Positions 38,498-44,512 of a stretch of DNA of 44,512 bases are shown one piece after another (position 1 is the stretch's first letter; every line of letters starts with the position of its first letter). Location: NCBI GenBank assembly GCA_021819735.1, contig JAKAFO010000002.1, forward strand, positions 1-44,512. The letters run 5' to 3'. Made by a program: the position numbers and the translations under genes. Source of the DNA: Deltaproteobacteria bacterium. GTDB lineage: Bacteria > Desulfobacterota > Desulfobacteria > Desulfobacterales > Desulfosarcinaceae. A model generated the notes under the pieces. The model had not been told where the DNA came from and ran no database searches. It saw only the letters and a program-made list of their open reading frames with translations.

Positions 38498-38637
38498 ATT
38501 AAACCATTCGACGGAACACCTTTGATGGCGTTGCGGCCTTGCGATGATCCGCCGATTTGCATGAGGAAGAACCCTCTGACTCAACTTCGTTCAGCCCTCT
38601 TGCAGGACTATGGACGAACGCCCTAGGAGAATCCATT

Positions 38638-39825
38638 ATGCCCGGTTTTGAAATATTCGGCGAAGAAGAACGCAAAGAGGTTCAGGATGTGCTGGATACC
38701 GGCGTCCTGTTTCGCTACGGTTTTGATGCCGCCCGTAAAGGACACTGGAAGGCCCGCGATTTCGAAAATGAACTGGCCGGGCGCCTGGGCACGGCCCATT
38801 GCCATCTGTGCGCCAGCGGCACGGCCGCGTTGCATGTGGCCTTGGCAGCCTGCGGCATCGGCGCCGGCGATGAAGTGATCATACCGCCCTTCACTTTTGT
38901 AGCGACTTTCGAAGCCATCCTGACGGCCGGCGCCGTGCCGGTTTTTGCCGAAATTGATGAGACACTGGGCCTTGATCCCGCGTTGCTGGAAAACTACCTG
39001 ACGCCGCGCACCAAAGCCGTCATCGTCGTGCACATGTGCGGCGCCATGGCGCGCATCGACGAGATCGCCACTTTCTGCAAGGCCAAGGGTTTGGCGCTCA
39101 TCGAGGACACCTGCCAGTCGGTGGGCGCCTCGTTCCACGGTAAAGCCCTGGGCACTTTCGGCCACATGGGCTGTTTTTCGTTTGACCCGGTCAAGACCAT
39201 CACCTGCGGGGAAGGCGGCGCGGTGGTCACCGACGACGATCGGCTTTACACGCTGGCCCATGCCTATGCCGATCACGGTCACGACCACATCGGCAGCGAC
39301 CGCGGCGCCGAAAGCCATCCCATCATCGGCTATAACTATCGTATCAGCGAACTCAATGCGGCCGTGGGATTGGCCCAGTTACGCAAGCTCGACGCCATCC
39401 TGAACACCCAACGGGCCAACAAGGCCGCCTTGAAAGAGGCCCTGGCAAAATTTCCCCGGATCGGCTTTCGCCAACTGCCCGATGCGCAAGGCGACTCGGC
39501 CACCTTTCTGACCTTCATGCTGCCGGACGAAGAGAGCGCCCGCCAAACGGCGCGCGACCTGAACGCCGGCGGCGCCGACGGCTGTTTTTACTACTACGAC
39601 AACAACTGGCACTACCTGCGCAATTGGCACCATCTCAAGCAGATGAAGAGCCCGGCGCGGCTGCCCGCCCAGTTGTGCGACCCCTGTCCGGACTACAGCC
39701 GTGTCACGCTGCCCCGTTCGGATGCGATCATCGCGCGCACCGTTGCCATGCAGATCAAGCTGGGCTGGCGCCAGACGGATGTGGCGCAGCGCATCGCCGC
39801 GATTCAAAAAGTATTATCCCGATAA
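38638..39825 (+). CDS. kdnA: 8-amino-3,8-dideoxy-manno-octulosonate (Kdo8N) transaminase KdnA
   Basis: A 395-residue DegT/DnrJ/EryC1-family PLP aminotransferase. The cofactor Asp lies in IEDTCQ (Asp157) and the Schiff-base Lys186 in SFDPVKTITCGEGG. The sequence resembles my memory of Shewanella KdnA along its whole length: MPGFEIFGEEE at the start, HAYADHGHDHIGSDRGAESH in the middle and DGCFYYYDNNWHYLRNW near the end. KdnA transfers an amino group from glutamate to the 8-aldehyde of oxidised Kdo, giving 8-amino-Kdo for the inner core of lipopolysaccharide. The KdnB partner follows 78 bases downstream, which makes the assignment firm. AGGAGA precedes the ATG. Confidence 0.93.
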   Translation: MPGFEIFGEEERKEVQDVLDTGVLFRYGFDAARKGHWKARDFENELAGRLGTAHCHLCASGTAALHVALAACGIGAGDEVIIPPFTFVATFEAILTAGAVPVFAEIDETLGLDPALLENYLTPRTKAVIVVHMCGAMARIDEIATFCKAKGLALIEDTCQSVGASFHGKALGTFGHMGCFSFDPVKTITCGEGGAVVTDDDRLYTLAHAYADHGHDHIGSDRGAESHPIIGYNYRISELNAAVGLAQLRKLDAILNTQRANKAALKEALAKFPRIGFRQLPDAQGDSATFLTFMLPDEESARQTARDLNAGGADGCFYYYDNNWHYLRNWHHLKQMKSPARLPAQLCDPCPDYSRVTLPRSDAIIARTVAMQIKLGWRQTDVAQRIAAIQKVLSR

Positions 39826-39903: not shown

Positions 39904-40983
<1,080 letters not shown>

Positions 40984-41025: not shown

Positions 41026-41032
41026 AAAGGAG
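41026..41032 (+). promoter_or_regulatory. Ribosome binding site deciding the start of the GlmS-like gene
   Basis: AAAGGAG lies seven bases before the ATG at 41040, close to ideal. It supports translation from that codon, 71 codons upstream of the catalytic cysteine. No ATG, GTG or TTG lies just before that cysteine. Confidence 0.7.
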
Positions 41033-41039
41033 ATTGGGG

Positions 41040-44000
41040 ATGAGGAGAGTAAAATCGCTGGGGACGATATCGATCTTCGGGTCAACCCTTCGATACATAG
41101 ACCATAGCGCGACATGGGTGCGCTCCCAGGTCCGGCAAGGGTTCGACAACCTTAAGGCATATCTGCGCGCGCCGATCTGCTGGGGACACCCTCCGGCCGG
41201 CAATCCAACGGATATCTGGGTCGTTCTGCCCGCTTCGCCCAATCTGCTGTGCTGCGGCCTTGCCGGACTGATCGCCTTTCACCGCAAAAGTACACCGCCC
41301 TCCCTGGAAGTCCTGCCCGCCATGGAACTCCAGGCCGCCGAAATTCTCAAACACCCCCTGGCGCGTTACGTTCAAGGCTGGTCATCGCCGGCCGAGCATC
41401 ATATGGGCGGCGATGCCGCGCCCGATCGTTTGTATCAACTGGCCTGCGACCTGAAACAGGAGAGCCCTTTTTTGGCCCTCTTCGCCGATCCCCAGGTCCA
41501 AGCCCGCATCGGCGCATTGGCAGGACGATTGGATAGCTTCATCGCCGAAGAGAGCAATACCCTGCACAAGCAAATGGGCTATCTGGCCGCGGCCGACGCC
41601 GAACGCGCCGATCAGCACATCGAACGCATCAAGGATACGGCCTGGTGCCTAAAGGTCGAACTGCTGGAAAACATCCACAAGGTCAAAGCGCTCATGGGGG
41701 CCGACCAGGCGTCGCCGGACCCGCGCATGGTGAGCACCTACCGCAACCTGAACACAGTGCTCAACAGCATCGACCGCCTGGAAGTGCGCGGCAGGGACTC
41801 GGCCGGTGTATCGCTGCTTTTCCTCCTTGCGCCCGATGTCCATGCGCAACTGGTGACGGAATGGACCCAAGCCGGTTTGGGCGATCAGGTCACGCAGCGC
41901 TCCGAACGCGCGGTGCTGGTCAACCAATCCATCGGCATCCACGCCCAAGACGGCGGTGGCCCCGTGGGCCTCACCCTGACCTACAAAGTGGCGGCGGAAA
42001 TCGGCTGCCTGGGAGACAATGTCCAGCGGCTGCGCCAGGAGATCGCCCAAGACCCCGTTCTGCGCCTGATCGCCCGCCGCCCCCACCTGTTTCATACGGT
42101 TTCGGCCCACACCCGCTGGGCCTCGGTGGGCGCCATCACCATCGCCAACTGCCATCCGGTGGACAATGCCACCGTCGGCCACTCCTGCGCCAGGAAGGGC
42201 ATGATCCACGCCTGTCTCAACGGCGACATCGACAATTACCTGGCCCTGAAAAAGAAGTGGGAGCAAAACGGGGAACCCATTCCCGAAGAGATCACCACCG
42301 ATACGAAGATCATTCCCCTGCAGATCGAGCGCCACCTCAGCCAGGGGCACACGGTCAGCGAAGCCTTCCGGCGCGCGGTGAGCGACTTCGAAGGCTCCCA
42401 TGCCATCGCCATGCACACCGATTTGGCGCCGGGCAAGTTTTTCCTGGCCCAGAAAGGCAGCGGGCAGGCGGTCTTCGTGGGCCTGGCCGAAGATCACTAC
42501 CTGCCCACCTCCGAAGTCTACGGCTTCGTCGAGCAAACCTCCCGCTTCATCAAGCTCAACGGCGAAAAGGTGGTTCAAGGCCAAAGCGGTCCCACCCAGG
42601 GGCAGATCTTCATCCTGGACCAAACTGCCGCCGGCGGGTTGGAAGGCATCCGGGCCATGTACTACGACGGCACGCCCATGCCCCTGGGTCCGGAAAACAT
42701 TCAACACACCCAGATTACTTCCCGGGACATCGACCGCCAGGAGTTCCCCCACTACTTTCTCAAGGAGATCTCCGAAGCGCCGCTGTCGGTGGCGCGCACC
42801 ATCCAGAACCGCTGGAAGATGGCCGCCGACGATCCGGGCCGCCCCACCATCGCCTTGCCGGAAAGTTCTTTTCCCGATCGCATCGCCCGGGCCCTGGCCG
42901 ATGACCGCATCCGGCGCGTCTATTTCATCGGTCAAGGCACCGCCGGCATCGCGGCCCAGGCCATCAGCAACATTCTGGATTACTACCTCAACGAACCTTC
43001 CCTAAAAATCAGCGCGCTCAAAGCCTCCGAACTGAGCGGTTTCCAGATGGACGACCGCGGCGATCCGGCCGCCATGGCCGATGCCCTGGTGGTGGCCATC
43101 AGCCAATCGGGCACCACCACGGACACCAACCGCGCCGTGGACATGGTGCGCGCCCGGGGCGCCCTGACCATGTGCATCGTCAACCGCCGCGATTCGGACC
43201 TGACCTTCAAGGTGGACGGCGTGGTCTACACCAGCAGCGGACGGGACATCGAAATGTCGGTGGCCTCCACCAAAGCCTTTTACTCCCAGATCGTGGCCGG
43301 AGCGCTGATCAGCCTGAAGATCGCCGAAGTCAAGCGCCGGCGGTCGCCCTCCTTCGTAGCCGACGAGATCAAGACCCTGCTTACCCTGCCCGACCACATG
43401 CGCACCGTGCTGGCCATGCGCGCTAAGATCCAACAGTCGGCCGAACGCCTGGCGCCCACGCGAACCTACTGGGCCGCCGTGGGCAGCGGTCCCAACAAAT
43501 CGGCCTCCGACGAGATCCGTATCAAGCTCAGCGAGCTGTGCTATAAAACCATCTCCTCGGATTATGTCGAAGATAAAAAGCACATCGATCTCTCGTCCGA
43601 ACCGCTGATCGTCATCTGCGCAGCCGGCGTCGGCAGCACCGTCATCGGAGACATCGTCAAGGATACCGCCATCTTCCGCGCCCACAAGGCCGCGACGGTG
43701 GTCATCGCCGACGAAGGCGAAACCCGTTTCGACGCCTATGCCGAAGATGTCTTCCATGTACCCGGCATGCCGTCGCACCTAGCGCCGATTCTCAATACCC
43801 TGGTGGGCCATCTGTGGGGCTACCATGCGGCCCTGGCCATCAACAACGGTTCGCATTTTCTCCACCAGTTTCGGGAAGATCTCAAACACACGGTAGATCA
43901 ATACGCCCGCGATGGCCTGGATATCTACGAAGTGGTGTTGGAAAAAAACTTCCGCGAAAAGGTGGCCGGATTCTACACCGAATTCCGCAAACGACTGACC

Positions 44001-44512
44001 AGCGGCGGTCTGCCCAGCACCATCCGCCACGCCGCCGATCTGCTGTTACTGCTGAAATACCTGGCCGGACGCCTGCCGGTTTCGGATTTCGAACCGGACT
44101 TCGGCAAGAAAGGCACGGCCTTGAACATGCTCAACAGCCTGTTCGAGTTTCTGGGAGAGTCCATCAACGGCATGTCCCGGCCGGTGGACGCCATCAAGCA
44201 CCAAGCCAAAACCGTCACCGTGGGCACCAGCCGCATCAGCGAAAAGCTGGAAGGCGTTCTCTTCGACGCCCTTACCGATTACGGCATCAATCCCTCGCAA
44301 TTGATCAACCGCAACATTCTGGTGCTTAAGAACCTGCAACCGATCATCGCCGAGATCAAAGGGGCCATCTTGTACAAAATCGATGGTCTGGACAGCCTGG
44401 GAGAGCCCAACGATCGCACCACCATCGATATCCTGCGCAAGGAGGGTGTGCTCAAGCCGCTGACCTCCCGGGTACAAGGCGACAAGGGCCTGAAGGGCAC
44501 CAAGCGCATCGT
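41040..44512 (+). CDS. Giant GlmS-like protein: class II glutaminase plus two SIS domains (C-terminus outside window)
   Basis: The frame is open from the ATG at 41040 to the window end, at least 1157 residues, against about 610 for GlmS. A glutaminase domain is split by an insertion: the nucleophile region CGLAGLIAF starts at Cys72, about 165 extra residues follow, then RGRDSAG (250-256), HTRWA (357-361), the oxyanion-hole NG (394-395) and TDT (420-422). Two SIS sugar-isomerase domains follow: the first (about 600-790) with SQSGTTTDTN and VASTKAF, the second (about 800-955). A further helical region (about 960 onward) has no GlmS counterpart. In GlmS the Cys is residue 1 after Met removal; here 71 residues must be cleaved or the start must be unusual. 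The gene follows kdnB, so a role in amino-sugar or LPS synthesis is plausible. It is not the ordinary glmS. Confidence 0.85.
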   Translation, partial: MRRVKSLGTISIFGSTLRYIDHSATWVRSQVRQGFDNLKAYLRAPICWGHPPAGNPTDIWVVLPASPNLLCCGLAGLIAFHRKSTPPSLEVLPAMELQAAEILKHPLARYVQGWSSPAEHHMGGDAAPDRLYQLACDLKQESPFLALFADPQVQARIGALAGRLDSFIAEESNTLHKQMGYLAAADAERADQHIERIKDTAWCLKVELLENIHKVKALMGADQASPDPRMVSTYRNLNTVLNSIDRLEVRGRDSAGVSLLFLLAPDVHAQLVTEWTQAGLGDQVTQRSERAVLVNQSIGIHAQDGGGPVGLTLTYKVAAEIGCLGDNVQRLRQEIAQDPVLRLIARRPHLFHTVSAHTRWASVGAITIANCHPVDNATVGHSCARKGMIHACLNGDIDNYLALKKKWEQNGEPIPEEITTDTKIIPLQIERHLSQGHTVSEAFRRAVSDFEGSHAIAMHTDLAPGKFFLAQKGSGQAVFVGLAEDHYLPTSEVYGFVEQTSRFIKLNGEKVVQGQSGPTQGQIFILDQTAAGGLEGIRAMYYDGTPMPLGPENIQHTQITSRDIDRQEFPHYFLKEISEAPLSVARTIQNRWKMAADDPGRPTIALPESSFPDRIARALADDRIRRVYFIGQGTAGIAAQAISNILDYYLNEPSLKISALKASELSGFQMDDRGDPAAMADALVVAISQSGTTTDTNRAVDMVRARGALTMCIVNRRDSDLTFKVDGVVYTSSGRDIEMSVASTKAFYSQIVAGALISLKIAEVKRRRSPSFVADEIKTLLTLPDHMRTVLAMRAKIQQSAERLAPTRTYWAAVGSGPNKSASDEIRIKLSELCYKTISSDYVEDKKHIDLSSEPLIVICAAGVGSTVIGDIVKDTAIFRAHKAATVVIADEGETRFDAYAEDVFHVPGMPSHLAPILNTLVGHLWGYHAALAINNGSHFLHQFREDLKHTVDQYARDGLDIYEVVLEKNFREKVAGFYTEFRKRLTSGGLPSTIRHAADLLLLLKYLAGRLPVSDFEPDFGKKGTALNMLNSLFEFLGESINGMSRPVDAIKHQAKTVTVGTSRISEKLEGVLFDALTDYGINPSQLINRNILVLKNLQPIIAEIKGAILYKIDGLDSLGEPNDRTTIDILRKEGVLKPLTSRVQGDKGLKGTKRI

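Follow-up and report, generated by a model that had tools for sequence, protein, structure and literature searches.

We find that the last gene of a 44,512-nucleotide stretch of DNA from a Deltaproteobacteria bacterium of the family Desulfosarcinaceae (contig JAKAFO010000002.1; hereafter the window) encodes a giant relative of glucosamine-6-phosphate synthase (GlmS), which is very probably a precursor whose leader would be removed as a propeptide to expose an internal catalytic cysteine, Cys72. In class II glutaminases the free α-amino group of an N-terminal Cys serves as the base, and to our knowledge GlmS is usually taken to be an N-terminal nucleophile (Ntn) amidotransferase that needs the removal of Met only. 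Judged from the sequence, the two ends of GlmS that are essential to its chemistry, the N-terminal Cys and the C-tail, both lie at internal positions in the product of this gene, and an environmentally important lineage of sulfate-reducing bacteria seems to depend on a GlmS from which the leader has to be removed first.

The GlmS-like frame runs on the + strand, like every feature described here, from an ATG at 41040 to 44510 (1157 residues) and contains no stop, the gene running off the contig end; a complete relative, L002, is 98% identical to the window protein and 1266 residues long. An earlier note, made from the letters of the window alone, had described a giant GlmS-like gene with an internal Cys, and this description stands, with the correction that the gene is truncated here by the contig end. 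The start signals are also as that note had them: a Shine-Dalgarno-like element, AAAGGAGA (41026..41033), read from the sequence, places AAGGAG 7 bases before the leader ATG, and the window contains no in-frame ATG, GTG or TTG in the 40 codons preceding Cys72, the codon of which (41253..41255) lies in the context NLLC-C-GLAGLIAF. This Cys, predicted to become the N-terminal nucleophile once the enzyme is mature, is invariant in alignments A1 and A2.

Relatives were drawn from a scan of species genomes, represented by the best 80 of 131 stretches encoding a relative, and from 60 related genomes, and those that include the Cys form a set of 88 distinct sequences, window included, which leans towards close relatives; a separate phylum-wide sampling was even, and identical mature sequences were counted once. 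Six loci (L028, L058, L063, L069, L090 and L103) were left out because their contigs begin after the Cys. A leader precedes the Cys in 81 of the 88 sequences, and the other seven start with Met-Cys-Gly. Cultured species such as Desulfosarcina widdelii and D. alkanivorans are among the leader-bearing ones, with the gene on their chromosomes. Leader conservation, which the earlier note proposed to check by aligning homologs, is thereby borne out, as is that of the leader core described below, and a Met-Cys-Gly start common to all homologs, which that note held would undo its proposal, is confined to these seven. The same note considered a 71-residue propeptide to be long; for this clade it is not unusual, since the leader measures 45-76 residues in 79/81 forms when the first ATG within 76 codons is taken.

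The leader falls into two parts. Its core, residues 46-71 (ICWGHPPAGNPTDIWVVLPASPNLLC, 41175..41252), ends directly before the catalytic Cys, and its 26-residue spacing to the Cys is kept in 78 of the 81 leader forms, as is the motif [VI][YF][FW]G[RK]...VP..[SA][IL][VI]FFP...N.L. that it carries at this constant distance. Position -8 is Pro in 81/81, and conservation extends to -4 (N/T/S) and -2 (mostly Leu). The residue directly before the Cys, P1, is by contrast variable (C 44, S 9, N 6, A 6, F 5, H 4, G 3, Y 2, R 1 and D 1; n = 81). Over the 30 codons preceding the Cys, the third codon position is the most changed (0.498 vs 0.358 and 0.254 for the other two, from 117 close pairs that are not independent), as expected of a translated and selected peptide. 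The variable N-terminal part (residues 1-45, 41040..41174) is a predicted basic amphipathic helix, modeled by AlphaFold2 (AF2) as a helix over residues 12-43. The leader set is rich in K+R (19.6%) and poor in D+E (3.1%), the N-terminal part carries a net positive charge in 72/73 leaders, and its helical moment exceeds that of shuffled sequences in 68/73 (mean z 1.40 vs 0.67 in 25-mers taken from the mature protein as controls); what this part conserves is its predicted character, basic and helical. A Sec signal peptide was judged unlikely by eye, as Arg and Lys occur throughout the helix.

A leader model of 36 columns (A4) was searched against 21 genomes, 10 leader-bearing and 11 with leaderless giants; scoring in the larger genomes was confined to 150 first-look candidates, and one leader (from G372) is identical to a row of the model. 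The model matches the leader of the giant in 10/10 leader-bearing genomes (E 4.5e-7 to 3.3e-15), including the window, where the match (41148-41252, E 1.3e-7) extends right up to the Cys codon, and no other match below E 0.02 is found in these ten. The best match in the 11 genomes with leaderless giants reaches only E 0.026, and we therefore see no sign that the leader moved to another gene there; the idea that leaderless species encode it as a separate gene was considered and set aside.

Start signals in the wider set agree with translation from the leader ATG. A Shine-Dalgarno match of at least 4 bases precedes 60 of 126 candidate leader ATGs vs 149 of 1524 internal in-frame ATGs, and at the best leader ATG of each locus one is present in 55/78, compared to a mean of 12.2/78 (maximum 20) over 500 draws of equal numbers of internal ATGs.

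The domain that follows the leader looks like an active glutaminase. The earlier note had listed the remaining glutaminase residues (HTRWA, NG and TDT) as present, and they prove to be kept in all or most of the set: HTRWA (residues 357-361, 42108..42122), NCHP, LNG[DN]IDN, RGRDSAG (residues 250-256, 41787..41807; the RGxDSAG motif of GlmS) and KKHID each occur in 88/88 sequences, while [TS]DTK occurs in 82/88, and two of the six misses, L099 and L110, read CDTK and retain the Asp. In the window protein LNGDIDN (residues 393-399) holds Asn394-Gly395 (42219..42224), which we take to be the oxyanion-hole residues, and TTDT (419-422) holds Asp421 (42300..42302), which does not vary among the 39 rows of A1 and is presumably involved in glutamine binding. 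The glutaminase residues expected of a GlmS (Cys, HTRWA, NG and TDT) thus appear to be complete. The spacing differs from that in canonical GlmS. Between the Cys and RGRDSAG lie 149-199 residues (n = 88, with a median of 178) vs 25 in five canonical GlmS proteins, owing to a predicted helical insertion between the first strand and RGRDSAG (approximately residues 84-228, 41289..41723; model helices 91-219), and a second insertion, before HTRWA, brings the distance from RGRDSAG to HTRWA to a median of 110 vs 44.

An AF2 model of residues 1-567, built from 33 sequences (predicted local distance difference test score, pLDDT, 85.4; predicted template modeling score, pTM, 0.81), places an Ntn fold after the leader with the Cys at the start of its first strand. 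When this model is compared with known structures, the rows for GlmS, GFAT, PurF and glutamate synthase begin at model residue 72, which aligns to the matched chain at residue 1 or 2, and to residue 22 in 7mfm and 87 in the plant GPRAT 6lbp. For E. coli GlmS, PurF and glutamate synthase it meets the first residue of the chain (residue 1 of 3ooj, 1xff, 1gph and 1ea0). The matches include the C1A mutant of GlmS, 3ooj (Z 27.5, root-mean-square deviation (rmsd) 2.1 Å over 236 aligned residues), 1xff (Z 27.3), the PurF structure 1gph (Z 20.9), 6lbp (Z 20.4) and the glutamate synthase 1ea0 (Z 18.4). The leader itself is modeled as the helix at 12-43 plus two short strands, with low confidence at residues 1-11 and 64-71.

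The second half of the giant has the features of the GlmS isomerase. A search of Pfam with the window protein detects a SIS region (approximately residues 555-934, 42702..43841; E 8.3e-13), with GATase_6/7 sub-threshold only. In E. coli GlmS, Glu481, Lys485, Glu488 and His504 are catalytic isomerase residues; a profile alignment with 1jxa gives Glu825, Lys829, Glu832 and His848 as their counterparts, so that the isomerase residues of GlmS appear to be complete as well, and the motif EIRIKLSE is found in 87/88 sequences. Lys603 in the C-tail of E. coli GlmS forms a Schiff base with fructose-6-phosphate, and six canonical GlmS proteins terminate in PRNLAKSVTVE. The giant carries RPVDAIKHQAKTVTVG, in which AKTVTV (residues 1056-1061, 44205..44222; 87/88 sequences, the sole miss, L093, being a frame of just 894 residues) is the putative counterpart of the GlmS tail AKSVTVE, matched by motif rather than by scored alignment, and here internal. 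A predicted helical insertion (approximately residues 935-1046, 43842..44177, seen in the AF2 model of L002) separates the SIS region from this tail, and a C-terminal extension (44223..44512, truncated by the contig end) follows it. Measured in 84 relatives, the stretch after the tail Lys has a median length of 208 residues; 82 of them fall within 205-224, and the two outliers have 120 and 249. Residues 1057-1266 of L002 show weak PAS/GAF-like rows at Z ~6 (model pTM 0.58), and the best fold row for the extension, 7jsr, a large glutamate dehydrogenase, is likewise weak (Z 9.6, rmsd 4.7, 160 residues aligned).

With these residues conserved, the giant is very likely the working GlmS of these bacteria. 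Of the 60 related genomes, 57 contain the giant, whole or in pieces (58 match, G034 only via a canonical GlmS), and a canonical GlmS above the curated cut-off occurs in two, compared with 14 of 14 control genomes; the two are G034, which is without the giant, and G021, in which a 329-residue frame accompanies it. With canonical GlmS nearly absent from these relatives, the giant should be active. Across the class, the giant profile matches 275 of 291 genomes, and discounting five weak matches in genomes with a canonical GlmS leaves 270. The 21 class genomes without the giant comprise five with a canonical GlmS and 16 with neither enzyme at E 1e-50; the 16 (G049, G077, G139, G238 and others, six of them from one genus, g80) are 72-98% complete, so some are probably assembly gaps, though not all need be. 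Either assembly gaps or another route to glucosamine-6-phosphate would account for them. In the phylum outside the class, 19 genomes contain the giant or a divergent form of it, and only one of these, G481, also has a canonical GlmS over the cut-off. In G481 the leader-bearing giant and the canonical GlmS lie on different contigs (C29 and C30).

The history of the leader was traced on a tree of 62 mature sequences, made with a quick search in which the leader itself was not used and rooted on the divergent leaderless L166-L169; L163, missed by the motif pattern but found on reading to have a leader, was left out. Leader state changes three times on this tree, compared to a mean of 11.9 changes with shuffled labels (0 of 500 shuffles as low), which most simply would mean one gain of the leader and two losses. 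One loss marks a clade of eight (support 100), with Desulfonema magnum among its members; the second is seen in L157, from another family of the phylum. Both leaderless groups begin Met-Cys at the homologous Cys. Outside the order of the window the leader is present in 14 of the 15 non-divergent giants sampled. Only one column of the mature protein tracks leader loss by the criterion used, Lys1134 to Arg or Gln, and, as Arg is found in the outgroup too, we give it no weight. Once made, the mature enzyme thus seems able to do without the leader. The root sequences L166-L169 are divergent relatives from two other families of the phylum, with frames of 1058-1170 residues and an MCGIA start, and L166 and L169 share the internal AKTVTV tail; they are possibly the ancestral form of the giant.

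We propose the following path of maturation. The precursor would present a basic amphipathic helix followed by the 26-residue core at its fixed distance from the Cys; once the giant has folded, Cys72 would attack the preceding bond, the Cys71-Cys72 bond would be cut and the leader would depart, giving Cys72 a free α-amino group. In the mature enzyme, Cys72 would hydrolyze glutamine, and the ammonia would pass to the SIS domains, where fructose-6-phosphate would be held by Lys1057 of the internal C-tail. Cys72, acting inside the folded Ntn domain, would itself most likely remove the leader: P1 varies over 10 residues while the core keeps a fixed spacing, a combination that favors self-cleavage over a sequence-specific protease. 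Propeptide cleavage, put forward in the earlier note, is thus the reading best supported by comparison, through the glutaminase motifs, selection on the core, the Met-Cys starts after leader loss and the scarcity of canonical GlmS, and cleavage as such is what we infer from these.

Several observations weigh against this proposal. In the AF2 model the end of the leader is poorly placed (pLDDT ~45 at residues 61-70), with no docked, cleavage-ready geometry. The invariance of the Cys is partly by construction, as Cys-Gly is part of the pattern that selected the 88 sequences; each of the six loci dropped for missing Cys-Gly starts at a contig edge that lies beyond this site. Two sequences from later searches, L121 and L165, have Ala at -8, so that Pro is not universal there, and the N-terminal part of the leader is without a reading-frame signal (0.573, 0.577 and 0.630 in an ungapped comparison). 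Sixteen of 291 class genomes with neither enzyme, four of them at least 97% complete, somewhat weaken the argument that the giant is the only GlmS, and the search for canonical GlmS covered the 60 relatives and 40 chosen genomes rather than the whole class. Finally, 23 of 78 leader loci lack a Shine-Dalgarno match at any candidate ATG, and an in-frame ATG, GTG or TTG stands at -2 or -3 in 20 of the 81 leader forms. This last count, like the Met-Cys starts of the leaderless relatives, would fit an annotation or assembly artefact, with translation starting next to Cys72 at an unusual codon and the leader never made. We reject this explanation, which the other start signals contradict and which is barely credible: a start codon directly before the Cys (-1) is found in 0/81 leader forms, a Shine-Dalgarno match is missing before the Cys in 77 of the 81 (present in 4/81 when a start there is pretended) vs 7/7 at the gene starts of leaderless forms, and isolates and metagenome-assembled genomes that were sequenced independently, complete chromosomes among them, share a core conserved at the protein level.

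The remaining alternatives accept that the leader is translated and differ as to its fate. It is unlikely, if conceivable, that a separate cellular protease recognizing the leader core, and not Cys72, removes the leader; the conserved positions of the core, Pro at -8, N/T/S at -4 and mostly Leu at -2, could form its recognition site, but the wide variation at P1 argues against it, as does the reported self-cleavage of the related PurF/GPRAT enzymes (PMC7056826). We consider it improbable that the leader is retained, with the giant acting as an ammonia-using GlmS with a silent glutaminase and the leader anchoring it to the membrane or a partner. A basic amphipathic helix would suit such an anchor, and Ntn relatives such as beta-lactam synthetase, in which the glutaminase function is lost, are among the fold matches; however, a silent domain would drift, and HTRWA, NCHP and LNG[DN]IDN are kept without exception, losses of the leader restart exactly at Met-Cys, and a single mature column accompanies them. 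A vestigial glutaminase is unlikely on the same counts. A further possibility is compatible with self-processing and adds control to it: removal of the leader would be regulated, as in a zymogen, through sensing by the leader helix or the PAS/GAF-like domain. The weakly PAS/GAF-like extension and the persistence of the leader both within the set and outside the order are consistent with such control, but two lineages manage without the leader, and we regard it as tentative and rather unlikely. In its fullest form, which is equally speculative, the giant would be a self-processing GlmS zymogen in most of the class, with a leader, exclusive to the giant, that sets the time, and perhaps through a membrane-binding helix also the place, at which the nucleophile forms, and with the PAS/GAF-like domain adding sensing. 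If true, the giant would be the first known case of a GlmS that matures by proteolysis and is regulated at each of its two chemically essential termini. Natural pairs of leader-bearing and leaderless forms make the function of an Ntn amidotransferase propeptide directly testable, and they bear on the role of the leader, the reasons for its persistence and the course of its two losses.

Comparison with known systems places the giant between two of them. It resembles GlmS/GFAT (TIGR01135) in the class II glutaminase at its N-terminus, which has Cys, RGxDSAG, HTRWA, NG and TDT, in its SIS domains with counterparts of Glu481/Lys485/Glu488/His504 and in its AK[ST]VTV tail. Unlike these enzymes, it has a leader, glutaminase insertions of ~150 and ~65 residues, ~110 residues between the SIS region and the tail and ~208 after the tail Lys, and it scores at about half the curated cut-off: 218.9 bits against NCBIfam glmS TIGR01135 for the C-terminally truncated window protein, vs a cut-off of 418.05 (209.6 in the genome search). 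Glutamate synthase GltB is known for leader processing, and its synthase domains differ from those of the GlmS type; it shares with the giant an Ntn glutaminase, the chain of 1ea0 starting at the aligned residue 1, and is the more distant match to the model (Z 18.4 vs 27.5 for GlmS). The synthase half of PurF/GPRAT is a phosphoribosyltransferase, and an Fe-S center is present in the enzymes of B. subtilis and plants, both unlike the giant. The likeness to PurF/GPRAT is in an Ntn glutaminase encoded with a propeptide-like leader before the Cys, cleavage of which in the giant we infer. Eukaryotic and many microbial PurF/GPRAT enzymes are reported to have a short propeptide, autocatalytic cleavage of which yields the N-terminal Cys, and plant GPRAT2 expressed in E. 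coli loses its propeptide (PMC7056826); likewise no propeptide is seen in a PPAT structure from 2026 (PMC13421311). Propeptides of Ntn amidotransferases are thus already known. Among the papers listed in searches of the open-licence literature, we found no GlmS propeptide, no N-terminal Cys propeptide on a GlmS and no work on GlmS in these bacteria, and within the same scope the internal GlmS tail and the replacement of canonical GlmS in nearly all of the 60 relatives are undescribed. We file the giant as an enzyme that would work like GlmS and be made like PurF, outside the curated GlmS equivalog.

Directly upstream of the giant lie a KdnA-like 8-amino-3,8-dideoxy-manno-octulosonate transaminase (38557..39825; 5k8b, E 2.4e-166), the match to which begins at residue 28 and the true start of which is probably ~38638, and a KdnB-like Fe-dependent 3-deoxy-manno-octulosonate (Kdo) 8-oxidase (39904..40983; 5k8c, E 2.3e-151), which we take to be the pair for 8-amino-Kdo (8-amino-8-deoxy-Kdo). 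A KdnB relative on the same strand, at most 500 bases upstream of the giant, is found in 35 of the 79 loci with at least 900 bases upstream, and the giant therefore often stands beside envelope-sugar genes, which suggests amino-Kdo in the lipopolysaccharide of these bacteria. Further upstream, the window encodes a penicillin-binding protein, MetG, RicT, HolB and LptD.

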